Source of the DNA: a virus
Virus record (IMG/VR): IMGVR_UViG_3300037189_006948
Span: 1 to 60,631 of that record
Strand: one strand, 5' to 3'
DNA length: 60,631 nt
Shown here: positions 10,597 through 60,574 of the stretch, piece by piece
How the letters are laid out: each line of letters begins with the position of its first letter
Position numbering within the stretch: position 1 is the stretch's first letter
Position numbers and translations under genes: made by a program
The notes under the pieces: generated by a model
What the model was told of the DNA's origin: nothing
The model's input: the letters and a program-made list of their open reading frames with translations, nothing else
The model's database searches: none

Positions 10597-13500
10597 ATGT
10601 CTAATCTCTCTACCGCAGAATTCCAGCAGTACGCTCTCACGTTGCTTCAGCAAATTGCTGGATCATCTGGAGTTGTGGATATTCACAGCAATCTTTCTAC
10701 CGCAGTTTATCGGCAATATGTATTGTCTCTGCTCGAATACATTGCGACTCATGGCGGAGGTGGTGGCGGAACTGTAGGGGCTACAGGGCTTCAAGGGGCA
10801 ACAGGATTGACAGGGCTAATTGGAGCCACCGGCGCAGGCTTGGCTGGAGCCACCGGCGTGACAGGTGCTACTGGTATGTCAGGCGCAACTGGTGTAGGTG
10901 TTTCGGGGGCAACTGGATTGCAGGGGGCTACAGGAACGGCTGGATCGGTTGGATCTACTGGGTTGGCCGGGGCAACTGGAACAGGCGTTGCGGGTAATGC
11001 GGGAGCTACAGGGTTGACTGGGGCTACAGGGGTAGGCACGGCTGGGAATACTGGTGCCACAGGCGTTGGTTCGACTGGCTTGCAAGGCGCAACTGGCGTT
11101 GCTGGAGGGGTTGGAGCAACGGGTCAGACTGGTGCTACGGGCATTGTTGGCAATGCCGGTGCTACAGGATTTCAAGGGGCGACAGGCATTGGAGCAACAG
11201 GTAATGCTGGAGCCACTGGAATCGGGGCTACAGGATTGCAGGGAGCGACTGGTGTTTCTGGAAGCATTGGGGCTACAGGTGCTCAAGGCGCAACTGGGGC
11301 CGGTGCAACTGGTGTGACCGGGTCTACTGGGTTGACTGGTGCAACTGGTGCAAACGGGCAATCCACGTCATTTTACAATTACCAAGCGGATACTTCTACT
11401 CAAACACTTCCTCCGCCTGGGCCTATCACAAACGGTCATATTCTGTGGAACAACTCTACGCAAAGTGCCGCAACTCAGATTGCTTTCTCGCACATTGACG
11501 GGAATGGCAATGACATCGACGTGTTTTTCTCTCTGTACAAAAATGGAGACACGTTTGTAATTCAGGATCAGAGTAATTCTAATAATTACCAAAAATGGCA
11601 GATCAATGGGACTCCCACAATCGGTGATAATTCCTACATCACGATTCCTGTAACACTTCAGGCATCTGGTGGCTCTGCTAATTTCAGCAACAACCAACAG
11701 GTTATTTGGGCAATTGTCACTTCTGGCCTTCAAGGCGCAACGGGCTTGACGGGGGCTACAGGTATTGGAGCTACTGGTGTGCAGGGAGCGACAGGATTAC
11801 AAGGCGCAACAGGCACCGGGCTACAAGGGGCAACTGGACTCGGAGCTACTGGCGTGCAGGGTGCTACTGGGGTTGCTGGATCTACTGGCGTGCAAGGCTC
11901 AACAGGATTGCAGGGCAGTACTGGTGTTGGCTTGCAAGGTGCTACTGGGTTGACTGGTGCTACAGGCACGTCTGGCGCAATTGGAGCCACCGGCGTTGCT
12001 GGAAACGCAGGGGCAACTGGGTTGTCAGGAAGTACCGGCGCACAAGGGAATACGGGAGCCACTGGTATTGGAGCGACTGGTTTACAAGGTGCAACTGGGA
12101 TCGGAGCAACTGGCACTCAAGGAGCAACTGGTGTTGGTGCCACGGGCTTGCAAGGTAGCACTGGAACACAAGGAGCCACAGGTGCTGGCGCAACGGGATA
12201 CCAAGGCGCGACGGGTTTATCTGGCGCAACAGGAAGCGCAGGCAGTGTTGGTGCGACGGGTATTGGAACTGTTGGAGCAACTGGCAATGATGGTGGCGTT
12301 GGTGCGACTGGTCAGCAAGGCAGTACAGGGGTGCAGGGGGCAACTGGCGCGGGAGTATCACTTCCAGTTTCAATTGCAAATGGGGGAACTGCTGCAACTA
12401 CCGCTGGTGATGCGCTAACGAATCTTGGACTTGGAGGAGTTCGCCTTATTGAGGCCACGCAGACAACAAATGTTGCGTCAACAATGAACACTGGCGTTAC
12501 GCCAAATACGTTGACCGTTAATACTGCTGGGCCATTTTCAACAAACGATTCATACACTCCAGTGCTTGGAGATGTTGTGCTATTTACCAACCAAACTGGG
12601 CAGGCTGTGCAGAATGGCCCGTGGGTGGTTACGACTGTTGGCGCAACTGGAGTGCAGGCTGTATTTACTCGTCCCTCTTGGTTTTCTGGAACTGGAGTAA
12701 AGCCGTTTTCAGCATTTATTCGTTTTGGAACATCTCGTTATCACAATATTTACATCATTGTAAATCAGGCTGTTGGAGATATTTCTGTTGGATCTTCCGG
12801 CCTCGCCGCATATCCGACATCAATAAGGCAAGCAAATGCAAACCTCAGCGCAAATACGTTTGTAAATACACAGACATTTAGTGCTGGAAATCTAACAAGT
12901 CCTCCAGCCTCATTTCAAGCTGGAATTTTGATGACAACTCCAGCCGCACATCGCATTGAATGGGACAACACTGCTCAATACAATGTTGCTTTATTTTCGG
13001 CATCAGGCACATGGGCGATTGGCACAAATCAAACAGTCACGCTGACAACTGGAACGACTGCTGGATTAACGCCCGGAGCGGTTGTTGTTAGCGGTATTGC
13101 TCCAACAACACTGACTGTTGGCAGTGTTTTAAGCTCAACACAGTTTACGCTTGTTGGAACAACAACAAACGCAGGCAGTGCAACTGCGTTCACGATGGCG
13201 TCCCGCCGAACTGTTGCGTATGTTGATAGCGGTGTGCAGGGAGCTACCGGCTTACAGGGGGCGACAGGTTTAACAGGAAGTACTGGCGTTGGTGCTAGCG
13301 GAGTGCAGGGAGCCACTGGTTATCAAGGCGCAACAGGCGCGGGAACAGCAGGATCGCAAGGCGCAACAGGCTATCAGGGGGCTACCGGCGTTGGCACTGC
13401 GGGAAATGCAGGCGCAACAGGGATGCAAGGAGCTACAGGTGTTTCTGGTGGGATTGGCGCAACTGGGGCGCAGGGAGCAACAGGCATTGGGGCTACAGGT

Positions 13501-15357
13501 GCTCAAGGCGCAACTGGATTGTCTGGAAGTACTGGAGTAGGCACAATCGGCGCAACGGGAGCAACAGGCACAGGATTAACAGGAGCTACGGGTCTTGTTG
13601 GGGCAACCGGGATTGCTGGCAACGTAGGAGCCACAGGAACGGGCAGTATTGGTGCAACGGGCTATCAAGGTGCTACCGGCGCGGGCTTACAAGGAGCAAC
13701 CGGCGTTGGTGCAACCGGGTTGACTGGAGCCACGGGCGTTTCTGGATCGCAAGGCGCGACAGGTGTGGCTGGCGGAATCGGAGCTACAGGCTATCAAGGT
13801 GCTACTGGAACAGGGTTAATTGGGTTGACAGGAGCTACCGGCGTAACCGGCGGTATTGGATCTACTGGATTAACGGGGTCAACTGGCGCAGGCGGCGTTG
13901 GAGCAACTGGTGCTACAGGTTCTGCCGGTGGTGTAGGGGCCACAGGAGCCACAGGAACAGGCACAGTGGGCGCAACTGGCTTAACCGGCGCGACTGGGAT
14001 TGGCGCAACGGGGGTACAAGGGGCAACGGGTCTTCAAGGGTCGACTGGAGCAGGAGTTTCACTGCCAGTATCCATCTCTAATGGCGGCACCGGCCAGACG
14101 ACACAACAAGCGGCACTTAACGCATTGGCTGGAGCGGTAACAGTCAACCAAGTACTCAAAGGCGATGGGACAAATGTGGCGTTGGCGGCATTGACTTCAG
14201 CAGATATCCCAACACTGCCAAAATCAAAACTGAGCGGCGTTGCAGCTTCTGGGGCAAATACAGACATTACGTCTATAGCGTTGACTACTGGGACAGTTTC
14301 TACAGCTCCATCAGGTTCAAACGACTTAGTCACAAAGTCTTACGCTGACTCAATTGGCTCAGGAATTAACTTTCACGATGCTGCCGATTACGCTACAACC
14401 GCAGCGTTGTCTGCTGCTTATACTTACGCCAACGGTACTTCTGGAGTTGGCGCAACGATCACAGCAAACGCAAACGGCACGCTTACCATTGACGGATACA
14501 CATTGCTGTCTACGGACGTTGGCAAGCGGTTGCTGATCAAAAACGAAACGGGGGCGTATGTTAATAATACTACTCCGAGTGCAGCTTTTAATGGCGTTTA
14601 CACGTTAACTACAGCGGGAACGGCATCTGTTCCTTATGTTTTAACGAGAGCGACCGATTACGACACAAGTGGGGCTGGAACAAACGAAATCAATCAAGGC
14701 GACTTTATCCTCGTTTTGAGCGGTTCTACGCTCTCCAACACAGCTTGGGTGCAACAGACAAGAATTCCGATAACAATTGGCACGACAAGTCTTTCGTTCA
14801 CGCAATTTGCTAGCTCGGCTGGCGGAGTAACATCATTTGTCACAACCTTGTCGGGATTAACTCCATCAGGAACTCCTGCGACTAGTGCTGTTACCCTTGC
14901 TGGGACGCTTGGCATTGCTAGCGGCGGAACTGGGGCGTCAACAGCAGCGGCTGCGCTTACAGCTCTTGGAGCAGCTTCTTTAGGAGCTAATACGTTTACC
15001 GGGGCGCAGACATTTAAGACGTTTTCGGAAACGGGCACTACACCAGCAATTTCAAGCAATGTTGTAACAATTGACCTTTCTACAGGGTCAGACTTTACGG
15101 TTACACTTAACGCTAACGTGACATCCTTCACAATTAGCAATCCAGCGTCAGGCGTTTCAAACTTTGTGCTTGAGTTGTTGCAAGATTCAACTGGCAATCG
15201 GACTGTTGCGTGGACGTTTACAGGTAAAACATTAAAGTGGGCCGGTGGAGTTGCTCCAACTCAAACGCTGACAGCATCTAAATCAGATGTTTACACGTTC
15301 CGAACCCGGGACGGTGGTGCAACATGGTATGGGTTTGTTGGAGGCCAAAACTACTAA
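10597..15357 (+). CDS. Giant collagen-like fibre protein
   Basis: 1,586 residues. It starts with two near-identical helical repeats ([19 protein letters not shown] and [19 protein letters not shown]), probably the virion anchor, then a Gly run. Three long Gly-X-Y blocks, rich in GATG units, alternate with globular beta domains: residues about 58-253, 377-587 and 880-1153. [17 protein letters not shown]-type repeats and a C-terminal beta domain ([18 protein letters not shown] to YGFVGGQNY) match phage fibre knobs. It should form a trimeric triple-helical rod. The abundant Thr in GAT is the sort of site that is O-glycosylated in bacterial collagens, and glycosyltransferases lie nearby. Its place directly after the capsid gene leaves open a head fibre rather than a tail fibre. 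Confidence 0.85.
10770..11355 (+). repeat. Collagen-like Gly-X-Y block 1
   Basis: Tandem nine-base units encoding Gly-X-Y, mostly GAT-Gly-X-X combinations such as [10 protein letters not shown]. About 65 triplets lie here. Third positions vary (for example gga/ggg/ggc for Gly), so the DNA is much less repetitive than the protein. Confidence 0.9.
11725..12358 (+). repeat. Collagen-like Gly-X-Y block 2
   Basis: Second long GATG-type Gly-X-Y block of the same fibre gene, separated from the first by a globular insert (11356-11724). It leads into [19 protein letters not shown], a typical fibre repeat. Confidence 0.9.
13234..14055 (+). repeat. Collagen-like Gly-X-Y block 3
   Basis: Longest Gly-X-Y block, near 90 triplets, again mostly GATG units. 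It is followed by [19 protein letters not shown] and the C-terminal fibre domains. Confidence 0.9.
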
Positions 15358-33703: not shown

Positions 33704-36700
33704 ATGGCAGATGATGAATTTTGGAGTAGCCTTAAAAGAGATGTCTCTGGTTCCGAACCGGCTCAAGTTGACGGCTCAAAACAGGATCATCAAAAGGGAA
33801 AAGATGATGATTTTTGGAATGAATTAAAGAAAGAAACTGGAAATACAGGGCTTTCTGTTCCATCGATCAGCGTCTCGTCTGAGGGTGAGGCGTATAAACC
33901 TGATACGGGCCTTGTGTCGTCAGGTAATTTAGGATCTGGCAAGTTTCTTCAATCAGACGTTCCCCAAGGCGGGAGATGGGCTGAGTATGGGAATGTGGTT
34001 GATCCCGCCAAAAGAAAAGATTTAGCGCAGGAGCTGTCTCAATATCGAGACCCAAAGCTGCTTGAAGAGATTCAGCGTGAAGTGCCGTGGTACAAGATGT
34101 CAGACAGTCCCGAGCAGGTTGGCGCACTGTTTACGCATGAATGGAATAAGCCGTGGAGCGAAAGGGGCGCAGAGCTGGCGCAGGGGATTGCGAGCGGTCT
34201 ATCTCACTTTGTTGGTGGCACCATTCCAGACATTGCCGTAGGGGGATTTAATCTTGCAAAAGATATCACCGGCCTTGGACAAAAGTCTGTCACTGGTGAA
34301 ACAGACGCCTCCATTCGAGCTTCCCGAATCCTTGGCGATGCTGCCATGCGAGCCGCTGAAAGCTTGTACACGCCAGCGCACGAGATGGCTGAGGGCGGAC
34401 ACTATGCGGTAGACCGGGCTCGTTATGCAATGGCCCCTCTTGAGGAAAAGCAAAAGGAGCTAGAGAACGCCAAGGAGAACTTTCGCAAGCGGCTCGATGC
34501 AAAGCACGCCGAACACTTGTTCAACGAAAAGAATCCTGCGGTGCTGGCCCGTTGGATTGATCGGTTTTCCAACGCAAGGGTGGACTGGAGAGCAATGGCT
34601 AACCCGTATGGGTCTGCCTTCTCTCCACCACTGTCTGACAAGGATCGGGCAGACATAGAGTCGCCGGTTGTAAAGCAGGTTTCCTCAGACATCATTCAGC
34701 AGTTCCTTCCAAGCCCTGAATCAGTTGCCAAAGAGAATGGCACAACAGTAGAGCAAGGCAGACAAGCCATCAAAGAGCAGTCGATGATGATGGCCGATGG
34801 AGCTATTCAAGGCGCACTTGAAGGTGCAAATCGTCTCGCTGAAGACCCAAAACAAGTGGGATTTGTGGAGATGGTTACCCCGCTAAATTCTTTTGGAGTT
34901 GCCGGTGCTGCGCTTTCAGAATTAACCGGCGCAGCTAGGCTCGGAGTCCAAGCTGCTCGCAGGTTTGGCAAGTCTGCTGAAGAGATCAATGCAATAGAGA
35001 GTGCGGCTGCGGCTGACGTTGCTGCGGCTGCTAGGGATCGTGCAAAGGCATCCATGCTTCCCGGGCCGGTTGAGCAAGGATTGCGCTCAATGGGGCGGGG
35101 TATTGAGTTTGCTGGCAACAAGCTGGAAGGAGCTTTAGAAAACATCCCGACGCCAATGAAGGTTGCTGGGTTGGCAGGGGGCGGAGCATTAGCTGGGGCT
35201 TTGACGAGTGATGATCCGATTTCTGGAGCATACAGAGGCGCAGGTCTGGGCCTTGGCGCGTATCTTGGAGGTAAAGCAGCCAACGCACTAAAGCTGGGGT
35301 CTGCAATTGCTGCCACGCCAAGAATAGGAGCGGACTTACTTGAAGCGGGCCGATTAGCCACCGGCAATATGGGGAGGTTTGCTACTGCTGAGTCAATGAC
35401 GGCAGCGTCAGACGCAACCAAGAACCTTATTCGAGCTGCTTCGCTTGGAGCTGGTGGTAAGGCCCTTGATTGGGTTGGCAAGAATGCACTAGTGGCACTC
35501 AAACATAACGTGGACATGGCCCCGCTGATGCTGGCGTTAGGCGTTTATAACCAAGACGACGCTCAGCAGTTTGGCAACATGATGGTCGAAGGGGCTGGTT
35601 GGGGGCTGGTTCACGGGCAAATCTTGGGACAACTGCGAGGCCAAGATCACGTTGCAAATGAGATGAATAGGCGTTATGACGCCCAACATGCAGACCGAGT
35701 GTTGTTGGCTTCCAGCCCGGAGCATCGAGCCAATGTTGACCGGTTGAATTGGGACAAAGTGGTCGAAAGCTCTGCAAACCAAGTGGCAGCAGCAAAGGGA
35801 GAGTACGATAGGCTTGTCTCTCAGACACCAGACGCTCCAGAGACAGCAGCGGCATTGAACCGGCTGAAGTTCCTTGAAGACACGCACCTCAAGAATCTGA
35901 CGGCTACTCCTCAGACTCGACAAGCTTTCCATGAAGGTGTTAAACAAGCTTTCGGCAAAGCCGACATGCTCATCAACGGGGCGTTGAGCCCCAACAAAAA
36001 CATCAACATTGAGCTGCTGTCTGGAGACCAGATTGTAGCCAAAATTATCGCTGCCAACCCAAACTACAATGGTCAAGGCGTGCCAATGACTCCAGAGCAG
36101 GCTGCTGGATACAAAGATAAGAAAGGCATGTTTTGGGAGGCTAAAGACTCTGAAGTTGGCAAAGCTGCGGTTGACCCATTCAAGGGCACGGCAATTGTCA
36201 ATCTTGACAAGGTCATAGCAAACAACCGAATCACCGGGGATGCGCTTCCTAATGTAATCGCCCATGAAGCAGTGGGTCACGGGTTGTTTACGATGCGGGA
36301 GTACAGAGAGAAGATTGCGCCGGTGTGGCAACAGTTATTTGGCAGTGAGTACACTGATGCAAATGGCGTTGTGCGTCCGATAGTGCCCGGAGCATATTCT
36401 CGGGAAGATGTTGCAAAGATGTACTTTGATCGGTATGTCCACGGTGAGACTCCTGAGTCTAAAGCTGCAAACTTAGAAACTTTCTGCAAAGAAAACGGCA
36501 CTTGGGACGTTGCCACAAACGCTCCTGACCTGAACAAGATTGTAGACTACATGCGCCAAGAGATATTGGCGGACGCGCACATGGGGAGTCTTTATGCTGA
36601 CCCCAACTCGCCATTACAGAATGCTATTGATTGGGCTGCTAGCAAGGTTTCAAGCAATGTTCTAAAGTCAGCACTACAAAAGCTGTACGCAATTGCTGGG

Positions 36701-39700
36701 CCGGGTGCTTACGAGGCGTACACGGCTCCAACCAGCACAAAGGCTACATTTTCTCCAGAGGTGATGCGGCAAATCAAAGCCGTTGAGGCTGCGATGGAAA
36801 AGTACGAAGGCCACTTTGAAAACGCCGAGAAGAGCGACGCAATGAAACCGCCAATGGTTTCAAAAGCGGATGTGCTGAAGTCCAAGGAGTTGATGCACAA
36901 ATATCACCGGGACACTGGAAAGTTCGAGACCAAGCCTGTCGCCATCGTCACCGACGCCGCGGGCAATGTAATCTCAACAACAGACATTCAGGCACCAGAT
37001 GTCTTTGATGGTGAGTACGTTTACAACAAAGACGAAATTACTGGCGCAACAACGCCTACTAAAGTGTCTGGCTATGGCGACATCCCAGAGAGCATTAAAA
37101 ACATCGCTGTGCCAACGGGAGGCAAACTCACTGTCGAGCGGGCGATTGTTTACGATGAGGGCACAGGTCAGCCAATTGAGCGGTCAAACCAAAAGACTCG
37201 TCAAATAAACGAGGAGCGCAACAAGCTCCTGCGGCAGGCTATTGATGGTGCCGGTGATCAGAATGACATTAACCGTTTCCGAGCGGTGCCCGGGGAAGGT
37301 GAAGACCGGCCATATAAAGGCAGGCTACTGCCGGAGCAGCGTGCGGCAATTGAGGCGTTGCCTGAAAGCGTTGTGCCTAGATCAATGAAGGACAAGGTGT
37401 TCAGAATTGCGGACGCAATTACCGGGAACGACGGGTCTGTCTACGACATGGACTATGCTGCTCGGTTAAATGATCGAGGTGGATACCAAGCTTTTTCGCC
37501 CGAGATGCGCAGGATGGTTCCTGTGTCGTTGAATCTTTCCAAGGATGGAAATTTTTACGTCGGTTCATGGTCTATCTCAGGGCTAAACCGAAAAATTGAC
37601 CTGTGGCGACAACATTTGCCGTCGTACTTTTCTTTGTGGGGTGGTGATGTTAATGCTTTTAGAAACCAGTTCAGAACGGAGTTTCTGAACAATCTAAAAC
37701 CAATACATCCAGACCAGTTTGGTAATCTTGGGCCTCGTCCGGGGCGTACTGGGCTAGACGCCGATCCTGCCATTGCCAAGCAAAAAGCTGACATTTTCCA
37801 TGCCCTTCTTGGAGTCTCGCCAGAAAGCATCAATCCAGAGGTGCGGCAGCTTCCAAGGGAGAAGTTCAGCAGAAGGCAAAAGAAGCGAGCAAAGGGGTCA
37901 GATCCAGACACGATATTCCGTTCGTACCGGCTAGACTCAATGGCGTCGCTAGACGAGTCGCCTGCACCGTTCAAATACCCCATCCCGTATGGTTTGACTA
38001 AGGTAGCTTTCATGCCGGAAACAGCCAACATGGCAGAATCAGAGGAACGCAGTCCGCTTGGCCTTGACCCTGCCTTGCTTCGAGGCTTGTCAGTGTTGCG
38101 CAAACCTACTGAACAAGAAGAGTTGGGAATAAAGGGTTTGATTTCTGTTCCAACTCAAGAAGAATTAGATGCAAGAAAAGCCAATCTGCCTAAATACAAA
38201 ACAAGGCTTATTGAAGAAGGTGATTCAGCTTACATTGATATTTACGCAGAAGGATCTGATTTACAAAATCCAGCAGCTTCAGTTGAATTATCTAGAGATA
38301 AATCTAATCCAGAAGTGTTGAAAGTTGAATTTGTAGGGACTAACAAAGGGTTTAAAGGCAAGGGATACGGTGAGGCAGTATATAGAGAGGCGGCGAAGTA
38401 CGCTCAAAGAATTGGTGCCACACAATTATTTGGGGAACCAGTTTCAGAATCGGCAGCGTCAAGAAGAAGAAAGCTGTTTGAAACAAAACTTGGCCCTGAA
38501 GATTCCGACGACAAAGATTACTATACTTGGGCGTCTAGCGAGATTCCTAGCGGCGTTCGCTTCATGCCCGAGCAAGAGGAAGACCCAACAATGGTCGCTC
38601 CCGGCTTCTATAGCAAGGCTGGTCGAGTGCTGTTAGACAAGATGCCTAACCGAGCGTCTGCTGACCAGATTAAGGGCATTCTTGACCCACAGAAGGGCAG
38701 TGGTGTGAAGCCGGATGAGATGAAATGGAGCGGTATTATGCCGTTCATTGAGGCCACGCAGGCCGAGAAGGGCTTTGTCAGCAAGGATGACATTAAGCGG
38801 TTCTTGAAGGATAGCTACGCTGCAAAGTTTGAGACGCAGACAATGGGGCAATCAAGGTCGCTTGATGGACAATTTTATAGTGAGGATGAGCATTGGGGGG
38901 GCACTGCAAACTTTGATACTATTGCTGAAGCTGAAGAGGCAGCAATGGAGATGTTTGGTTTGAGTAAGGAAGAAGCGGAAGAGTTTGTGTCAGAAACAAA
39001 CCAGATTGATGCTGATTACGGAGAAGATCAAACTCGATATTCCAAATATAAACTTTCCGGCGGCACAAATTACGAAGAGACCGTACTGCGGATGCCCGGA
39101 GTAGACTACACCTCTAGACACTTCCCTGACGTTGAAAACTATGTCGCCCATATGCGGACGGCAGATCACGGAACTGGTCGCCTGATTGAAGAGTTGCAAT
39201 CCGATTTGCATCAGGCAGGCCGTGAAGAAGGGTACAAAGGAGAGTATGATGAAAATCGCAGGAATGAACTGCGAAACAAGCCAACTCCATTGACAGATGC
39301 TGAGATCGATGAGCTTGGAAACTTGAATGAAATGGCTCTAGGAAAAGGAGTTTCCGACGCTCCGTTCCGCAAAGATTGGCCTCTGCAACTTTTCAAGCAC
39401 GCACTCCAGAAAGCCGTTGCTGACGGCAAGGAATGGATTGGATGGACTGGAGGCGAAGCGCAGGCTGAACGGTTTAACATAAGTAAACAAGTTAGTTCTG
39501 TTGAATACTTGCCAGCAACTCAAGTTCTTCGAGCGTTTGACCTTAATGGACACGAAGCATTTGAAGATGTTGTGCCTAAAGAAAATATAGCCGACTATGT
39601 TGGAAAAGAAGTCGCTGAAAAACTACTTGCTACAGAGCCATACACGACAGGATCTGGAAAACAGGTTCATGCATTAAGAGGTGTTGATCTCAAAGTTGGC

Positions 39701-42697
39701 GGCGAAGGGATGAAAGGCTTCTACGACAACATTCTTCCAAAAGAGATTAACAAGTACGTCAAACAATGGGGCGCAAAGGTAGAGCCGTCGAAAGTTGGCG
39801 GTGCTGGCATCTGGCGCATCGACATCACGCCCGAGATGCGGTCATCCGTAGAGAGTGGTCAGCCTCGCTTCATGCCGGAAACGCTCGACGCCGAGCACGC
39901 AGCGGCGCATGAGGCAGGGGATGAGGAGAAGGCGCGTGAGATGGTGCGGAAGGCAGCGGAAGCGGCTGGGTATAAATTTGGCCCAATGTATCATGCCTCG
40001 TATGTTGATTTTAATGAGTTTTTAAGTAAATCTGATCAAGCAGAGGCTGCTGGAGAGATTTACGAAGAACCAGAAGGCGGCGATGCTGGAAACCTTGGCA
40101 CTGGATTTTATTTTACGCCGGACAAGGCATATGCAAAGAGATTTGGAACGCCTAGAGAGTTTTACTTAAAGTCTGAAAAAGTCATTAACGCTTCTGATCC
40201 TGAAATTCAAAAACGTCTTAATGAAATATATGAAGAGTTATTAAACGAGCGAGGCGGAGCGACAAATGGAGAAGTATATGATGAGCTAATGTCTGAAATG
40301 AAAGCGGATGGCGTCCTTGCAGAAGGAGCTGGAGGCTTGTCGTACGGCGCATCAGAAATGCTAATACGCCAATCCCATCAAGCTAAATCCGCCAACCCCT
40401 TCACCTACGACGACGCAGGTAAACTGATCCCGCTATCCGAGCGGTTTAACCCGGCTACCGGTGATATTCGGTTCATGCCGGAGCAGGAAGAGCGTGATGA
40501 ATGGACTCGTTCAATTGACTTAGCCAAAGAGACGGCAGACAAAGAACTAGAACGCTTGCGCGGGGATCGGTTGAATATTTCTCAAGCAAAGTTTGAGCAC
40601 AATCCCTCGGATGATCCAGAGCTTGGAGACACTTGGAGCTTTGTCCCTCCAAAAGACAAGTACTTTGACAATCCATCAATGTATAATGTGTATGAGTCTG
40701 ATGGGAAATACTACGTCGGCGAAGGCTATGGCGGCGGATTTGACACGCTTGAAGAAGCCAAAGACGATGCCATGCAACGAGCAATGGGCGAATCGTGGAA
40801 GGGAAGCAAATCGACGTTTGGATCTGACGCTGACTCTCAGAAAGCTGTCAGCGAAATCTTCAGCGCATTCCCAAAACAAATTGGCGATGTAACAAGTGAT
40901 GGTTGGTTTTCAACCAAATGGGGGAGCTGGTATTTGGAAGGACGCATTCCAACAGGCGAGGATGACTACGAAACCTTCAAATTGTCCATCCGTGATCATC
41001 CTGTAAGTGATCGGTTCCAAAGACCAGACAAGTCGTTTTACGTCTCAAAAGACTGGACTCCAGATGAAACTGCTAACGCACTGAAAAAAGCGGCAGACTG
41101 GATTGCTAATGAGGCCACGTTTGCCGAACCAGAAGGCAACAACGCTACTGCCGAGACCAAAGCCACCACAGAAGGCGCATTGTCTGGCGTGCGGTTTATG
41201 CCGCTTGGCGACGAAGCTCAGGCTGCGCTGTCTCCTGAAGAAATGCAGCGGTATTCTGCTTTTAAAAAAACAAAACCTTCAATTAAGTCAAATACTCTTA
41301 AACTCCCAATTAAAAAAACCGAAAACCTTCCAGACTTTGAAAGCACGGTAATCAAAGATAAGCAGCCAATTGTGTCATTTAATTGGGACAAGCCATCCAA
41401 TGTTGAGTTTGAGCTTGAAGATGGCAGAAAAATGTCATTTTCATTTGATCCCGCTTACCTCTTAAAGCCAGAATTCAAAGATGTCTTACAAGAGCTAAAA
41501 GGCCAGCCAGTGATATTGTTAGAGGCTGACAGGCAGAGAGCCACTGGCGGCGACATGGGTGGGCCTCTGCATCCATTTTTGCTCTCCAATCAGGTGACAG
41601 TTACCGGGCCAGACGGCAAGGAATATAAGGCGGTGTGGGCCAATATGACTTCTGGATTTGTTTCTGGAACCAAGAACAGAATGCAGGAGCATGGAGCCAA
41701 GCATGCCTTGGTACATTTAATGGATTCAATCGCCCATAAATCCAACAAACGCACCGCTAGAACCATCGACAAGATGATGCGGGAATCAGACTTAAAGCCG
41801 ATTGAAAAAGAAATGATCGCACTGGCAATGCAAGCTGGTATTATTGCTAACGAAAAAGCTGCAATTACTGCTTCAGTAACAGCCGCAAAGCGGGATATTA
41901 ATAAATATCAAGAAGATAAAGATAAGGTTCAAGAATTGAATGAAAAAATTAAACTGCTTTTATCTGAAAGAGAAGCATTAACTCCAAGCGATGAAGAGCA
42001 AGAAATTTACAACTCAATTTCAAAAATTAAAACAGCACAAACTAGAGTAAATTCAGGATTTAGCAAACAGGACATCATTGATCGAGCTATTGAAAATTAT
42101 AAAAAGTTAAGAGGCAGTCCAGTTCATAAATCTTTATTAAATAAAAACAAATCTTTATATATATCTGACAATATCGGCAAAACTTTTTCGCAAAGGGGTG
42201 CTGCAATTGAAAGTATTCTATCTTTAAAGTTTGAAAAATTTAATCCTAGAAAAGTTTTGAGCGAATCTGCCGATTTTTTAGATGGGGAAAATCTTGATAT
42301 TGTTGCCGCTGTAGAGCTTTCACAAAACCCTGATATGTTTGCTCTATATTTTGGCAATGATCCGGCAGAAGAAGCAGCAATGTCTCCAGCAGAAAAGGTT
42401 GCCAGAGATCAAATGCGAGCAAATCCAAACTTTGTTGAGCATGAAGCCTACGATTGGGTAATGCTTGGGCCAAAAGGCGGGAACAATTTCTTGGTTTCCA
42501 ACCCAATAAAACCAGAAGAAATCTTCAAAAATTACAGAACAGTACATGGCGGTGCCACTGTTGTAGATGGATCTCCTGAAACTGTTGCTGGCGCAATGCG
42601 TAAAAATGCTGGATTTAAGCTCGTTGTTGGCGAAGATGTGCAAGCGATGCCAAAAGCGTCAAAGCCCAAAAAACCAAAAAAAAACAAAAATAAATAA
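33704..42697 (+). CDS. Giant modular polyvalent virion protein
   Basis: 2,997 residues, by far the largest gene. Two DD(E/D)FW..LK motifs open it. A Gly/Ala-rich, membrane-active-looking stretch lies near residues 480-525. A zinc metalloprotease-like module follows with VIAHEAVGHGLF (HEAVGH at 854-859). Five FMP[E/L] junctions at about residues 1436, 1620, 2056, 2257 and 2498 separate modules. Between 1436 and 1620 is a GNAT-like acetyltransferase (GFKGKGYGEAVYREA). Between 1620 and 2056 is a widespread polyvalent module (LIEELQSDLHQAGREEGY, then GWTGGEAQAERF and GMKGFYDNILPKEINKYVKQ). Between 2056 and 2257 is an ADP-ribosyltransferase-like domain (MYHASYVDF, GTGFYFTPDKAYAKRFG). The rest is unrecognised; the C-terminus is Lys-rich. 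Such proteins are thought to be packaged and delivered to the host with DNA. Confidence 0.85.
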   Translation: MADDEFWSSLKRDVSGSEPAQVDGSKQDHQKGKDDDFWNELKKETGNTGLSVPSISVSSEGEAYKPDTGLVSSGNLGSGKFLQSDVPQGGRWAEYGNVVDPAKRKDLAQELSQYRDPKLLEEIQREVPWYKMSDSPEQVGALFTHEWNKPWSERGAELAQGIASGLSHFVGGTIPDIAVGGFNLAKDITGLGQKSVTGETDASIRASRILGDAAMRAAESLYTPAHEMAEGGHYAVDRARYAMAPLEEKQKELENAKENFRKRLDAKHAEHLFNEKNPAVLARWIDRFSNARVDWRAMANPYGSAFSPPLSDKDRADIESPVVKQVSSDIIQQFLPSPESVAKENGTTVEQGRQAIKEQSMMMADGAIQGALEGANRLAEDPKQVGFVEMVTPLNSFGVAGAALSELTGAARLGVQAARRFGKSAEEINAIESAAAADVAAAARDRAKASMLPGPVEQGLRSMGRGIEFAGNKLEGALENIPTPMKVAGLAGGGALAGALTSDDPISGAYRGAGLGLGAYLGGKAANALKLGSAIAATPRIGADLLEAGRLATGNMGRFATAESMTAASDATKNLIRAASLGAGGKALDWVGKNALVALKHNVDMAPLMLALGVYNQDDAQQFGNMMVEGAGWGLVHGQILGQLRGQDHVANEMNRRYDAQHADRVLLASSPEHRANVDRLNWDKVVESSANQVAAAKGEYDRLVSQTPDAPETAAALNRLKFLEDTHLKNLTATPQTRQAFHEGVKQAFGKADMLINGALSPNKNINIELLSGDQIVAKIIAANPNYNGQGVPMTPEQAAGYKDKKGMFWEAKDSEVGKAAVDPFKGTAIVNLDKVIANNRITGDALPNVIAHEAVGHGLFTMREYREKIAPVWQQLFGSEYTDANGVVRPIVPGAYSREDVAKMYFDRYVHGETPESKAANLETFCKENGTWDVATNAPDLNKIVDYMRQEILADAHMGSLYADPNSPLQNAIDWAASKVSSNVLKSALQKLYAIAGPGAYEAYTAPTSTKATFSPEVMRQIKAVEAAMEKYEGHFENAEKSDAMKPPMVSKADVLKSKELMHKYHRDTGKFETKPVAIVTDAAGNVISTTDIQAPDVFDGEYVYNKDEITGATTPTKVSGYGDIPESIKNIAVPTGGKLTVERAIVYDEGTGQPIERSNQKTRQINEERNKLLRQAIDGAGDQNDINRFRAVPGEGEDRPYKGRLLPEQRAAIEALPESVVPRSMKDKVFRIADAITGNDGSVYDMDYAARLNDRGGYQAFSPEMRRMVPVSLNLSKDGNFYVGSWSISGLNRKIDLWRQHLPSYFSLWGGDVNAFRNQFRTEFLNNLKPIHPDQFGNLGPRPGRTGLDADPAIAKQKADIFHALLGVSPESINPEVRQLPREKFSRRQKKRAKGSDPDTIFRSYRLDSMASLDESPAPFKYPIPYGLTKVAFMPETANMAESEERSPLGLDPALLRGLSVLRKPTEQEELGIKGLISVPTQEELDARKANLPKYKTRLIEEGDSAYIDIYAEGSDLQNPAASVELSRDKSNPEVLKVEFVGTNKGFKGKGYGEAVYREAAKYAQRIGATQLFGEPVSESAASRRRKLFETKLGPEDSDDKDYYTWASSEIPSGVRFMPEQEEDPTMVAPGFYSKAGRVLLDKMPNRASADQIKGILDPQKGSGVKPDEMKWSGIMPFIEATQAEKGFVSKDDIKRFLKDSYAAKFETQTMGQSRSLDGQFYSEDEHWGGTANFDTIAEAEEAAMEMFGLSKEEAEEFVSETNQIDADYGEDQTRYSKYKLSGGTNYEETVLRMPGVDYTSRHFPDVENYVAHMRTADHGTGRLIEELQSDLHQAGREEGYKGEYDENRRNELRNKPTPLTDAEIDELGNLNEMALGKGVSDAPFRKDWPLQLFKHALQKAVADGKEWIGWTGGEAQAERFNISKQVSSVEYLPATQVLRAFDLNGHEAFEDVVPKENIADYVGKEVAEKLLATEPYTTGSGKQVHALRGVDLKVGGEGMKGFYDNILPKEINKYVKQWGAKVEPSKVGGAGIWRIDITPEMRSSVESGQPRFMPETLDAEHAAAHEAGDEEKAREMVRKAAEAAGYKFGPMYHASYVDFNEFLSKSDQAEAAGEIYEEPEGGDAGNLGTGFYFTPDKAYAKRFGTPREFYLKSEKVINASDPEIQKRLNEIYEELLNERGGATNGEVYDELMSEMKADGVLAEGAGGLSYGASEMLIRQSHQAKSANPFTYDDAGKLIPLSERFNPATGDIRFMPEQEERDEWTRSIDLAKETADKELERLRGDRLNISQAKFEHNPSDDPELGDTWSFVPPKDKYFDNPSMYNVYESDGKYYVGEGYGGGFDTLEEAKDDAMQRAMGESWKGSKSTFGSDADSQKAVSEIFSAFPKQIGDVTSDGWFSTKWGSWYLEGRIPTGEDDYETFKLSIRDHPVSDRFQRPDKSFYVSKDWTPDETANALKKAADWIANEATFAEPEGNNATAETKATTEGALSGVRFMPLGDEAQAALSPEEMQRYSAFKKTKPSIKSNTLKLPIKKTENLPDFESTVIKDKQPIVSFNWDKPSNVEFELEDGRKMSFSFDPAYLLKPEFKDVLQELKGQPVILLEADRQRATGGDMGGPLHPFLLSNQVTVTGPDGKEYKAVWANMTSGFVSGTKNRMQEHGAKHALVHLMDSIAHKSNKRTARTIDKMMRESDLKPIEKEMIALAMQAGIIANEKAAITASVTAAKRDINKYQEDKDKVQELNEKIKLLLSEREALTPSDEEQEIYNSISKIKTAQTRVNSGFSKQDIIDRAIENYKKLRGSPVHKSLLNKNKSLYISDNIGKTFSQRGAAIESILSLKFEKFNPRKVLSESADFLDGENLDIVAAVELSQNPDMFALYFGNDPAEEAAMSPAEKVARDQMRANPNFVEHEAYDWVMLGPKGGNNFLVSNPIKPEEIFKNYRTVHGGATVVDGSPETVAGAMRKNAGFKLVVGEDVQAMPKASKPKKPKKNKNK

Positions 42698-53869: not shown

Positions 53870-54772
53870 ATGTGGATACTACCAAAATCACTCATATCAG
53901 CCTTTGCACTGGATACGGAGGTATTGACATCGGACTCCGTCGAGTGCTCCCAAATCTGCGCACAGTCGCTTATTCGGAGATCGAAGCCTTCGCCTGCGAA
54001 CTCCTACTTGCGAGAATGGAAGGCGGCCAAATTGATGCGGCTCCGATCTGGAGCGATCTCAAGTCCTTCCCTTGGACAGAGTTTTCTGGAAAAGTGGACA
54101 TCTTGTCTGGCGGATATCCATGCCAGCCCTTTTCTAGCGCAGGGAAACGACTTGGAGCAGAAGACGAGCGGCACCTCTGGCCCTACATCGCAAGCGGAAT
54201 TCGTATTCTCAAGCCCAGAGTCTGCTTCTTTGAAAATGTCGAAGGACACATCAGTCTTGGACTCCGAGAAGTCGTTGCAGAGTTGGAAAGCATTGGTTAC
54301 GAAACGACGTTTGGAATATTCAGCGCGTCTGAATGCGGCGCAAGCCACCAGCGCAAACGAGTGTTTATCCTCGCCTTGGCCAACTCCATCTCAGCGGGAT
54401 TACAAAGGTGCCTGCGCGAGCAGAGTGACGCCAGAGTGGTACAACAGCATGCTGGACGAAGCAGTGATTGTATTTGGCCCTCACGCTGGCCCTCACGCCC
54501 CGGTGAACCCCAGCACTACTGGGAGCCGCCCAGAGTCGTGGGCGACGCCTCAGACTGGAGATTACCGTTCAGCGGAGGGGAATCAAATCCGATGGAAAGA
54601 TCCGAATCGGAGTCAGAATTTAAACGACCAGATGAAGACGCAGATAAGAGGGAAATTAAATGCACGCTGGGTGGAGACATTAATGGGCCTGCCAATCGGC
54701 TGGACTATGCCGAGTTGTGCGTTTCCAGTGACAATCGCACCGACGAATTGCGATTGCTCGGAAACGGAGTAG
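53870..54772 (+). CDS. Overlapping second-frame protein of the methyltransferase locus
   Basis: 300 residues from ATG 53870, whose ATGTG overlaps the GTG start of the C5 methyltransferase, and contained almost entirely within it in another frame. It is not a random shadow: MWILPKSLISAFALDTEVL, SWKALVTKRRLEYSARLNAA, SSPWPTPSQRDYKG, WATPQTGDYR and KLNARWVETLMGLPIGWTMP recall segments of phage proteins associated with C5 methyltransferases. The last is like the C-terminal extensions of some DNA methylases. I recall similar alternate-frame products elsewhere but cannot check. It may cooperate with the methyltransferase in DNA recognition. Confidence 0.6.
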   Translation: MWILPKSLISAFALDTEVLTSDSVECSQICAQSLIRRSKPSPANSYLREWKAAKLMRLRSGAISSPSLGQSFLEKWTSCLADIHASPFLAQGNDLEQKTSGTSGPTSQAEFVFSSPESASLKMSKDTSVLDSEKSLQSWKALVTKRRLEYSARLNAAQATSANECLSSPWPTPSQRDYKGACASRVTPEWYNSMLDEAVIVFGPHAGPHAPVNPSTTGSRPESWATPQTGDYRSAEGNQIRWKDPNRSQNLNDQMKTQIRGKLNARWVETLMGLPIGWTMPSCAFPVTIAPTNCDCSETE

Positions 54773-54831
54773 TGCCAGCAACCGCAGAAAAAGCATTTAG
54801 AACATTAATCAACCAACTCAACCAACCATGA
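53872..54831 (+). CDS. DNA C5-cytosine methyltransferase
   Basis: 319 residues from GTG at 53872, the only start before motif I. Motif I LCTGYGGIDIG (11-21), motif IV GGYPCQPFSSAGKR with catalytic Cys84, motif VI FENVEG with Glu121, motif VIII QRKR near 160 and motif X LLGNGVVPATAEKAF near 295-308 are all present and in order. It would methylate cytosine in phage DNA, probably to evade host restriction. No partner restriction nuclease was seen. The recognition region is short and shares its DNA with the second-frame protein. Confidence 0.9.
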   Translation: MDTTKITHISLCTGYGGIDIGLRRVLPNLRTVAYSEIEAFACELLLARMEGGQIDAAPIWSDLKSFPWTEFSGKVDILSGGYPCQPFSSAGKRLGAEDERHLWPYIASGIRILKPRVCFFENVEGHISLGLREVVAELESIGYETTFGIFSASECGASHQRKRVFILALANSISAGLQRCLREQSDARVVQQHAGRSSDCIWPSRWPSRPGEPQHYWEPPRVVGDASDWRLPFSGGESNPMERSESESEFKRPDEDADKREIKCTLGGDINGPANRLDYAELCVSSDNRTDELRLLGNGVVPATAEKAFRTLINQLNQP

Positions 54832-57584: not shown

Positions 57585-57683
57585 ATGCACACCAGCTTCC
57601 TCTGGAGCGACTTTGTCACGCTGGCTTTGCTAGTAGGCTTTGCCATTGCAGTCATCACATGCTTTGACCAGCACCTGCTATGA
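57585..57683 (+). CDS. 32-residue single-pass membrane peptide
   Basis: One base after the previous stop; its TGA overlaps the TerL ATG. Sequence MHTSFLWSDFVTLALLVGFA then IAVITCFDQHLL is one transmembrane helix. Coupled to terL translation. Function unknown. Confidence 0.5.
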   Translation: MHTSFLWSDFVTLALLVGFAIAVITCFDQHLL

Positions 57684-60574
57684 GCGATAACCTGCTGGCA
57701 ACACTCCCCCCGCCGGTGGCCCGGGCTATCCGCATTGCGACGGAGGCCCGGGCACTTGCGGACTCGAGTGAAGAGCGTGGACTGATCCGCTGCGCCGGAT
57801 ACATCGCCAAGGCAGCACTTCAGCACCGAGGCAAGCTGGACATCACCGAGGCAATGGCCGAACGGATCGTCCGCAGCTACGTCCAGCACCTGCTAGATGC
57901 CGACCTGTTCGAGCCTGCGGCCATCTTGCTCTGGGGGCCGGGAGCGTTCGACTGGCGTCCTGAGTCCTGCCGTCGGGTCTGGGAGGGGCTGATGGGCACA
58001 GACAAGCTGCTGGTGCAGGGAGCTGGCAGTATGGGTAAGTGTCTCGCATTAGGCACTCCTGTGATCATGGCTGATGGGTCTGTGCGAGCCGTTGAGACGG
58101 TGCAGGCGGGCGACAGCGTGATGGGGCCAGACAGTAAGCCTAGGCGGGTGCTACGGACTCACTCTGGCATGTCACCTATGTACAAGGTGACGCAGGACAG
58201 AGGCGATGCGTACACAGTGACGGACGACCACATCCTGACGCTGGTATGCTGCGCCGATAAGGTGAACGGAGACGGCAAGACGGTGTCTAGCGGCTACACA
58301 AGGGGCCGAGTGATAGATATGTCTGTGCAGGATTATCTAGCCTCCTCTGAGCAGTTCAAGGAGTACTACAAGGGACTGTTCGCTGGCGTTGAGTTTGAGC
58401 CACAAGAATGCCCGGTTGACCCGTATGTGTTTGGCTTGTGGCTGGGTGATGGGTCTGCCACTGGAGACGCATTAAATCTTACGACTAAGGATGAACCTAT
58501 AGCGCAGGCTTGGACGGCATATTGGGAAGCTAATGGCTACACAGTGCGAGTGGCAACAAAGGCAGGCAACAAGGCATCAACCTATATCGTGCGGAAGCAT
58601 ACGCTGCAAACGATTATGGGCTTTGCATTGCAGGACAAGAGCAAGCAGGTGCCTGAGTGCTACAAGGTGAACAGTAAAGAGGTGCGGCTACAGGTGCTGG
58701 CAGGCTTCATTGACACTGATGGCTATGTGGCTGGGAGTGGCTACGGATTCACTCAGAAGAGCAAGGCCGTGACGGATGGGATTGCGTTTATTGCCCGGAG
58801 CCTTGGCCTTACGGCGACTGTAGCTAAGTGTCGCAAGCAGTGTGTGAACAATGGAGTGTGGGGTGACTACTATCGGGTGCATATAAGCGGTGACTGCACA
58901 GTTATTCCTTCTCGCATTAAGCCAGCTACAAAGCGAGGCAGGCGTGCGTGTCTGGGTCAGAAACTGACGATAGAGCCAGCAGGCGAGCAGGCGTACTATG
59001 GCTTCACGTTGGACGGGGATCACAGGTTCCTGCTTGGAGACTTCACTGTGACGCACAACAGCTACGGGGCAGCGGCATGGTTCTATTTGGACTGGTATCG
59101 TGACCCTGATTGGACATGTATCAAGGTTGTCTCGCTGACGGCTGCTCATGCTACTCGCAACATCTTCGCATCGATCAAGACGTTCCACCGCACTGCACTG
59201 GTACGCCCCGGTGGCATGGACGACGACCTCGCTACGAGCATCCAGAGCACGACAGACAGCAAGCAAGGCATCCATCTCGTCGCCATCCCCAAAGGCGAGT
59301 CAGGCCACGGGAGCCTGCGGGGCTTTCATCCCTCGCCACGATTCGGGCCAGCGCACGCTCGATGGGGCAAGGTCAGCCGGACTCACATCGTACTGGACGA
59401 AGCTGAAGAGGTGCCAGACGGCGTCTGGGCCGGTGTAATGAACTGTCTGACGGCAGCGGACTCCTCGACGCCCGGGCGCATCAAGGTCTTTGCAGCGTCG
59501 AACCCTCGTGACCGCACTAGCCAGTTTGGCCAGCGGTGCGAGCCGAGGTTTGGTTGGGGCAGCATAGACATGGAACTGGACAGGGACTGGACGAGTCGAG
59601 ACGGCTGGCAGGTGATCCGGCTGGACGCAGCGGACTGTGAGAACGTGAAGGAACGCCGGGTGGTGTATCACGGGCTACAGACCTATGAAGGCTTTATGGC
59701 CTACGTCAGTAAGGGCAGGACTGCGGAGGCCAGCACGATGGCCCGAGGCTGGTTCCCCGAGGAAGGGATAGCCATGTCGATCATCACACCGGCAATGATG
59801 GACAACGCTCAGGGCATCGTGCGGTTCGTCGGGCCGGTGGTGCCGCTAGCGAGCTTTGACTTGGCATTGGAAGGCGTTGACCAAGTGCTCTGCTCCTACG
59901 GACGGTTTGGTCTGAGCGACGGTTGGACGGACAGAAGCGGGAAGTTCCACGAGTTCAAACGGCCACGGACAATGTTGCAGCTCGACAGTCAGATGCCGTT
60001 TCCAAAGGCGGCAACGCTGGAGCAGGCGAACGCCATCATTAAGTTTTGCAAGCAGATGAAGATTAGCCCGAGATGGCTGTGCGTGGATCGCACCGGCAAT
60101 GGCGCGGGCATCCACGACGTTTTGTGTTCGACGTTTGGAGCGGATGTTATGGGGCTCAACTATAGCTGGGCTGCGACGGACACGCCGGTGATGGGAGACG
60201 ACAGCCAGAAGGCTAACGAGCTATACAACGGGCTGGTGACAGAGTTGTTGTTTGCGCTGGGCAAGTACCTTGAGTTCGAGTGGCTCAAGATCAGCCCGGG
60301 CTTTCGGAACGACGATCTGGTTAAGCAAGCGATCAGTCGCAGGTACATGCAGAAGGGCAAGGGACTGGTGCGTGTGGAAAGCAAAAAAGACTACATCAAA
60401 AGGACACGGCTGGGGAGCCCTGATGCGCTGGATTCGTTATCAATGCTGGTGCATTTGATGCGGCAGCGGGGCGGTAATGTGGCTACGATGAGTGAGAAGA
60501 AGCCGGAACCCGTGGAAAAGGAGTTGGTCTCTTTGGTGGATTCAAGTACAACCTTTGTGGACTTTACGGAGTAA
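57680..60574 (+). CDS. terL: Terminase large subunit precursor with intein
   Basis: 964 residues. The ATPase Walker A (GAGSMGK...S) is interrupted after Lys120 by a 340-residue intein (121-460). After splicing the protein is 624 residues, normal for TerL. Walker B and catalytic Glu lie in THIVLDEAEEVPDGVW (VLDEAE at 571-576). The nuclease domain shows FDLALEGVDQV, LCVDRTGNGAGIHDVL and SPDALDSLS acidic residues. It powers DNA translocation into the procapsid and cuts the DNA. Removal of the intein is essential because it splits the nucleotide-binding loop. Confidence 0.95.
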   Translation: MSDNLLATLPPPVARAIRIATEARALADSSEERGLIRCAGYIAKAALQHRGKLDITEAMAERIVRSYVQHLLDADLFEPAAILLWGPGAFDWRPESCRRVWEGLMGTDKLLVQGAGSMGKCLALGTPVIMADGSVRAVETVQAGDSVMGPDSKPRRVLRTHSGMSPMYKVTQDRGDAYTVTDDHILTLVCCADKVNGDGKTVSSGYTRGRVIDMSVQDYLASSEQFKEYYKGLFAGVEFEPQECPVDPYVFGLWLGDGSATGDALNLTTKDEPIAQAWTAYWEANGYTVRVATKAGNKASTYIVRKHTLQTIMGFALQDKSKQVPECYKVNSKEVRLQVLAGFIDTDGYVAGSGYGFTQKSKAVTDGIAFIARSLGLTATVAKCRKQCVNNGVWGDYYRVHISGDCTVIPSRIKPATKRGRRACLGQKLTIEPAGEQAYYGFTLDGDHRFLLGDFTVTHNSYGAAAWFYLDWYRDPDWTCIKVVSLTAAHATRNIFASIKTFHRTALVRPGGMDDDLATSIQSTTDSKQGIHLVAIPKGESGHGSLRGFHPSPRFGPAHARWGKVSRTHIVLDEAEEVPDGVWAGVMNCLTAADSSTPGRIKVFAASNPRDRTSQFGQRCEPRFGWGSIDMELDRDWTSRDGWQVIRLDAADCENVKERRVVYHGLQTYEGFMAYVSKGRTAEASTMARGWFPEEGIAMSIITPAMMDNAQGIVRFVGPVVPLASFDLALEGVDQVLCSYGRFGLSDGWTDRSGKFHEFKRPRTMLQLDSQMPFPKAATLEQANAIIKFCKQMKISPRWLCVDRTGNGAGIHDVLCSTFGADVMGLNYSWAATDTPVMGDDSQKANELYNGLVTELLFALGKYLEFEWLKISPGFRNDDLVKQAISRRYMQKGKGLVRVESKKDYIKRTRLGSPDALDSLSMLVHLMRQRGGNVATMSEKKPEPVEKELVSLVDSSTTFVDFTE
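58040..59059 (+). other. Intein with LAGLIDADG homing endonuclease in TerL
   Basis: Residues 121-460 of TerL. The intein starts at Cys121 (CLALGTPVIMADGSVRAVE, block A), has block B (TVTDDHILTL), two LAGLIDADG motifs (YVFGLWLGDG at 249-258 and LAGFIDTDG at 340-348), block F (GFTLDGDHRFLLGDF) and ends VTHN before extein Ser461. All splicing residues are present, so it should be active. The endonuclease would cut intein-free terL alleles, which helps the element spread. Confidence 0.93.

Follow-up and report, generated by a model that had tools for sequence, protein, structure and literature searches.

How can one short stretch of viral DNA hold two long open reading frames, and what do the two encode? 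The question arises in an IMG/VR virus record of 60,631 bases, the whole of which is called the window. A 960-base stretch of it very probably encodes both halves of a methyltransferase, one frame coding for the catalytic half and the other for the half that reads the sequence. The layout is common to hundreds of related viral loci, and the recognition pieces appear to have been swapped among them. The two frames (named A and B) and their starts lie as follows.

53870-53874, plus strand: double start ATGTG, made of the ATG of B and the GTG of A, 2 nt apart
53872-54831, plus strand: frame A, 319 aa, GTG start, putative catalytic subunit of a C5 cytosine methyltransferase
53870-54772, plus strand: frame B, 300 aa, ATG start, +1 relative to A, putative recognition subunit

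The original prediction that ATG 53870 and GTG 53872 overlap as ATGTG and open two frames was confirmed for both open reading frames. B is open for 300 codons inside A, as had been stated, with the correction that A extends 59 nt beyond the B stop. Codon positions 1, 2 and 3 of B are positions 2, 3 and 1 of A. No ribosome-binding site was found in the sequence ahead of ATGTG in the window. Overlapping starts, either ATGTG or ATGACATGG, are present in 59 of 64 non-redundant related viral loci, with the start of A located 2 nt after that of B in 40 of the 64 and 5 nt after it in 19.

Frame A matches the Pfam DNA_methylase family (PF00145) over residues 7-173 (E 4e-34) and phrog_363, labelled DNA methyltransferase, over its whole length (residues 2-312). 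The hallmark motifs I, IV, VI, VIII and X of PF00145 are present, the chain holding motifs I-VIII and X, and cytosine methylation is the predicted activity. The cysteine of the PCQ loop (C84) and E121, N122 and V123 are invariant among the related loci. The following elements were located in A.

53902-53937, plus strand: motif I
54109-54135, plus strand: motif IV, PCQ loop
54226-54249, plus strand: motif VI, ENV
54349-54375, plus strand: motif VIII
54487-54543, plus strand: conserved WPSRPGEPQHYWEPPRVVG, inside the DNA of the first recognition module of B, with A-like substitution (codons 201-220)
54751-54798, plus strand: motif X

Motif IX and a target-recognition domain were sought in the A chain and were absent, both being found in frame B instead. 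The AlphaFold model of A, based on a 47-sequence alignment, is confident for the catalytic fold and the motif X helix, and residues 224-287 score below 50, disordered where the recognition domain is expected. Foldseek matched this model to the HaeIII and HhaI methyltransferases over approximately 173 columns only, corresponding to the large domain. A had been described as a complete C5 methyltransferase; lacking motif IX and an ordered recognition domain, it is not one.

The missing parts are carried by frame B, in which four elements were identified.

54281-54340, plus strand: conserved helix (SWKALVTKRRLEYSARLNAA), residues 138-157, overlapping the motif VII-VIII region of A
54377-54538, plus strand: recognition module 1 (WPTPSQRDYKG...), 54 aa, WxTP module array
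54539-54655, plus strand: recognition module 2 (WATPQTGDYRS...), 39 aa, WxTP module array
54656-54703, plus strand: motif IX (LNARWVETLMGLPIGW), in frame B, where A codons 261-280 show B-type substitution

Frame B matches phrog_1008, also labelled DNA methyltransferase, over residues 73-243 (E 1e-15). No model in Pfam or NCBIfam matched it, and PDB searches with the B sequence and the B profile gave no match. The helix contains the near-invariant residues W139, V143, R147 and R153, and the blocks that span residues 131-160 reach an AlphaFold pLDDT of 83-95; its conservation may partly be a shadow of that of A. Motif IX was assigned by pattern, by position and by matches to single-chain relatives, and LNARWVETLMGLPIGW fits this motif as seen, for example, in RRLTPRECFRLQGFPDSF of the single-chain enzyme of phage EBPL. 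N264, W267 and W278 are invariant in this region. Motif X of A starts 47 bases past the end of motif IX of B, a spacing close to that in ShiLan gp70. Three segments of B (SSPWPTPSQRDYKG, WATPQTGDYR and KLNARWVETLMGLPIGWTMP) had been likened to segments attached to phage methylases, and they proved to be the two recognition modules and motif IX. Modelled alone, B reaches a pLDDT of 57, with confident helices only within residues 129-163 and at motif IX (265-272). Such a poor fold would be expected of a partner-dependent half and hints weakly at one, as other causes are possible. Read along the DNA, motifs I-VIII of A, the modules and motif IX of B and motif X of A follow the order of one ordinary enzyme, which supports the reading of a split enzyme. 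Collectively, the motif content supports B as the probable carrier of what A is missing from the same enzyme, its target-recognition domain and motif IX, and not as an accessory protein. All the evidence agrees with the suggestion that a catalytic protein and a likely recognition partner share the same 900 bases.

Relatives with a single chain allow the division to be traced further. ShiLan gp70 and JKSyngboy gp4 carry the catalytic domain, motif IX and motif X all in one frame, ShiLan gp70 having xPTP segments in addition, and the B profile matches this frame in both (E 3e-4 for ShiLan and 7e-6 for JKSyngboy). The Jarcob genes gp69/gp70 (L087, 1489-2659) are 99.8% identical to ShiLan gp70 (L189, 1789-2958); one inserted base, either a real mutation or a sequencing error, splits the single-chain methyltransferase of Jarcob into two annotated genes. 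In several loci (L003, L042, L048, L053, L055, L061, L074, L103 and L104), A stops short of motif X, which is located in B. Overlaps are shorter in the mycobacteriophages Jarcob, Kingsley and Eros, where B likewise carries motif X. The B chain of Alicyclobacillus L104 runs from motif IX through WPAGYGEAQYEWEPPR to motif X, and WPSRPGEPQHYWEPPR, the window counterpart of WPAGYGEAQYEWEPPR, sits in frame A. Since motif X and the counterparts WPAGYGEAQYEWEPPR and WPSRPGEPQHYWEPPR switch frames, these parts move as parts of one enzyme.

These relatives bear on the possibility that B is a separate protein with another role, such as an anti-restriction factor or a regulator, which overlaps A by happenstance. 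The long N-terminal segments of B, which have no counterpart in known C5 enzymes, and the lack of a Pfam or PDB match would suit such a role. It is nevertheless very unlikely, because B holds precisely the motif IX and recognition modules missing from A, exchanges motif X with A, lies in frame with A in single-chain relatives and never occurs without A in the loci examined.

The collinear parts, spaced as in the single-chain relatives, could also be joined into a single polypeptide by two programmed frameshifts, a +1 shift from A to B after motif VIII and a return to A between motifs IX and X. The Jarcob genes, which are the single ShiLan open reading frame broken by one inserted base, lend this some colour. 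We consider it quite improbable: two precise shifts would be required, two-polypeptide C5 enzymes are established (PMC3404938), and it accounts neither for an A frame that is open through the recognition region in all loci nor for a B frame that is open upstream of it, back to a conserved ATG of its own. Also left unexplained is the motif conserved specifically in A inside the recognition region (codons 201-220).

Could frame B be open by chance? Synonymous-codon shuffles of A in the window gave a mean of 4.5 stops in frame B, where none is observed, and only 0.25% of the shuffles lacked a stop; the third frame of the window has 14. Frame B is open in the same phase for 216-590 codons in all 64 non-redundant viral loci, in which 2-10 stops were expected, the overlap for this count being the intersection of the two open frames, which still covers nearly all of A in most loci. 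The IMG/VR searches returned 9 loci with B as query and 72 with A, and the B alignment, used as query, retrieved 507 viral relatives, of which 80 were kept, together with 11 bacterial loci. A overlaps B at the same phase in each of the 88 new loci found by the B query, and no stand-alone B gene without A was found among them. Many of the IMG/VR contigs are related, so the loci are not independent. The +1 frame of the single-chain controls, T4-like EBPL and Terrisporobacter, contains 11-35 stops. A two-profile search recovered the same layout in Escherichia phage N15 (gene 58), K1G, Acinetobacter ABMM1, Lacticaseibacillus R9.1, Synechococcus Yong-M2-251, phage C75C1, Paenibacillus Likha and a Shinella plasmid.

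Public records (L082-L086, L097, L098 and other named phages) mostly annotate one of the two frames. Both are annotated in Likha (L091), and K1G (L098) has a nested 'Mte8-like' protein annotated. R9.1, Yong-M2-251 and C75C1 were suspected of having B annotated; A is in fact the annotated frame there, with B hidden in the overlapping one.

Substitution patterns revealed which frame is constrained along the overlap. Beyond the B stop, A differs at third positions by 0.59 at 70% identity, as an ordinary gene does, and neighbouring genes on the same contigs differ by 0.41. The value is 0.31 in A codons 3-70 and 0.45 in codons 71-172, the latter showing no deficit against the neighbouring genes. 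Within codons 255-300 the pattern is inverted, with third positions (0.23) differing less than first positions (0.29). In ten-codon steps across motif IX (codons 261-280), the first positions differ by 0.49 and 0.44, and the third positions, which are the second positions of B, by only 0.09 and 0.08. First positions are thus free and third positions near-frozen, which indicates that B dominates here. Codons 291-310 (motif X) and 201-220 show an A-like pattern. Selection therefore changes frame where function predicts, acting on B at motif IX and on A at motif X, which further supports a split enzyme. In all four regions the similarity among B proteins exceeds what synonymous shuffling of A permits, and exceeds that of the third frame, the excess being least clear in region 71-172. 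The evidence for selection on B is good at motif IX, and such selection is likely at the N-terminus as well; at residues of about 71-170, where third-position divergence equals that of the neighbours, B may for the most part passively shadow A.

An untranslated B, kept open by the base composition and conserved codons of A as the sole gene, would account for the neighbour-like divergence of codons 71-172, and some single-chain relatives do have a partial open +1 frame (153 aa in ShiLan, 262 aa in JKSyngboy). The B-type selection at codons 261-280 already contradicts this for the C-terminal half; the absence of stops in each of the 64 loci and the lack of motif IX and an ordered recognition domain in A also oppose it, and it is extremely unlikely. 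The earlier view that the 53870 frame is no chance shadow is thus borne out by the 64 stop-free relatives and by motif IX. The outcome named in advance as refuting it, stops or absent selection in this frame of the relatives, did not turn up when sought, with the qualification that for B residues of about 71-172 selection on the two frames is inseparable.

The region between the B helix and motif IX is modular. The pattern W-x-[TS]-[PAIVTL] occurs there 3.2 times per locus, compared with 0.3 for shuffled sequence, and defines WxTP modules with a median length of 39 aa. The loci contain 1-9 modules each, the window two, and the module number correlates with length (r = 0.78, 114 loci). The modules fall into 52 families of two or more members and 51 singletons, with 95 different arrangements among 112 loci. 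Frame B modules recur in differing orders across phages. Modules 61-70% identical to module 2 of the window occur in L007, L012, L015, L018, L020, L115 and L147. The final modules of L069 and L123 have the same protein sequence and a DNA identity of 93%, against 69% for the catalytic DNA, which points to a probable recent cassette transfer. A smaller excess is seen for L023 and L101 (81% against 69%), and in the remaining four pairs checked the module DNA is no more similar than that of the catalytic region, suggesting that exchange is mostly old or that the modules are under strong protein constraint. Multispecific phage C5 methyltransferases have tandem recognition domains between motifs VIII and IX. 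Tandem modules at this place are present in frame B of the window, not in a single polypeptide. Each module would then represent one target-recognition domain, and by this analogy the modules of B may set several targets.

Two conserved open frames of fixed phase and start, the motifs divided between them, alternating selection, single-chain relatives and modular variation are all directly observed. On these grounds, it is highly likely that the locus encodes one heterodimeric C5 cytosine methyltransferase, with its two subunits encoded by two frames of one stretch of DNA. Ribosomes would start at either of the two overlapping start codons. Initiation at GTG 53872 would yield A, which would bind AdoMet and provide the catalytic cysteine with motifs I-VIII and X, only a flexible linker taking the place of its small domain. 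Initiation at ATG 53870 would yield B, supplying the target-recognition modules and motif IX. The two chains may then combine to form an active enzyme methylating the phage genome, with evasion of host restriction as the most likely purpose. Which sequence or sequences are targeted would depend on how many WxTP modules B has and of which type, with multispecificity as a possible outcome. It is also probable, at a lower level of confidence, that the locus belongs to a phage-wide class of two-frame methyltransferases in which B is overprinted on A from a shared double start, and cassettes are exchanged as dual-coding modules, each swap changing the specificity of B and staying readable as a linker in A.

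The closest precedent is M.EcoHK31I, whose small subunit, as Lee, Kam and Shaw reportedly described in 1995, lies inside the gene for the large subunit, in an alternate reading frame. The putative small subunit of the window lies in an alternate frame in the same manner. Of the two polypeptides that make up M.EcoHK31I, the smaller contains motif IX alone, and a target-recognition domain is predicted in the large one (PMC3404938). By the published description, the window resembles this enzyme (YGGCCR) in having motifs I-VIII and X in the large subunit and IX in the small one. It differs in that its recognition modules are in B, the overlap extends over the whole of B from a double start common to both frames, the setting is a phage, and B carries 1-9 modules across loci. 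A Paracoccus prophage enzyme with YGGCCR specificity was considered as a relative and dropped, being listed as m4C.

M.AquI (CYCGRG) has alpha and beta subunits, the smaller carrying motifs IX-X (PMC3404938). The window likewise has the large and small domains on separate chains, but its motif X is in A, so that IX and X are not both in the small subunit. The mycobacteriophage loci L087, L092 and L094 and Alicyclobacillus L104 are closer to M.AquI; IX and X both lie in B in L104, and the same is indicated for L003 and L087. The C5 methyltransferases of Bacillus temperate phages, studied by Trautner and others, have several recognition domains in one polypeptide (PMC12707154). Several tandem modules are shared with them, whereas the array here lies in a second frame and not in a single chain, and its cassettes must stay open in both frames.

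The library text of phrog_363 and phrog_1008, matched by A and B, is silent on mutual overlap of their members. In the literature within reach, which excluded most subscription journals and REBASE, no paper was found on the phage-wide layout, the shared double start or module shuffling, and none of the papers on frame transitions, PRFect or the ShiLan insertion describes the A/B overlap. The original prediction had called the arrangement very unusual; this holds in general, with M.EcoHK31I as one precedent. New features here are the spread across phages, an overlap that runs full length from a start shared by both frames, and recognition cassettes that have been shuffled.

In the window, the A/B pair is preceded by replication and recombination genes (an exonuclease, a Sak4-like annealing protein, a primosomal protein and an IstB-like ATPase) and followed by a terminase-like gene. 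Elsewhere, a 964-aa open reading frame resembling a terminase large subunit (57680-60574) contains a Hint domain and a LAGLIDADG homing endonuclease, an apparent intein; a 2997-aa open reading frame occupies 33704-42697, and one of 1586 aa (10597-15357) matches tail fibre families. No restriction enzyme was recognised among the neighbouring open reading frames scanned, and the simplest role would be that of an orphan, self-protecting phage methyltransferase.

Full-length same-strand gene overlaps are rare in the genomes of cells or dsDNA phages, and proof is usually difficult; this one is testable in many loci because each frame holds recognisable parts of the enzyme that differ from those of the other. 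The two-frame layout explains why annotation often retains just one gene of the two, and phage C5 methyltransferases expressed as a recoded frame A alone may be incomplete. The loci would offer a natural system for studying how modular recognition domains recombine under a double coding constraint, and the A/B pair would serve as a split methyltransferase already supplied by nature, its recognition subunit being variable.
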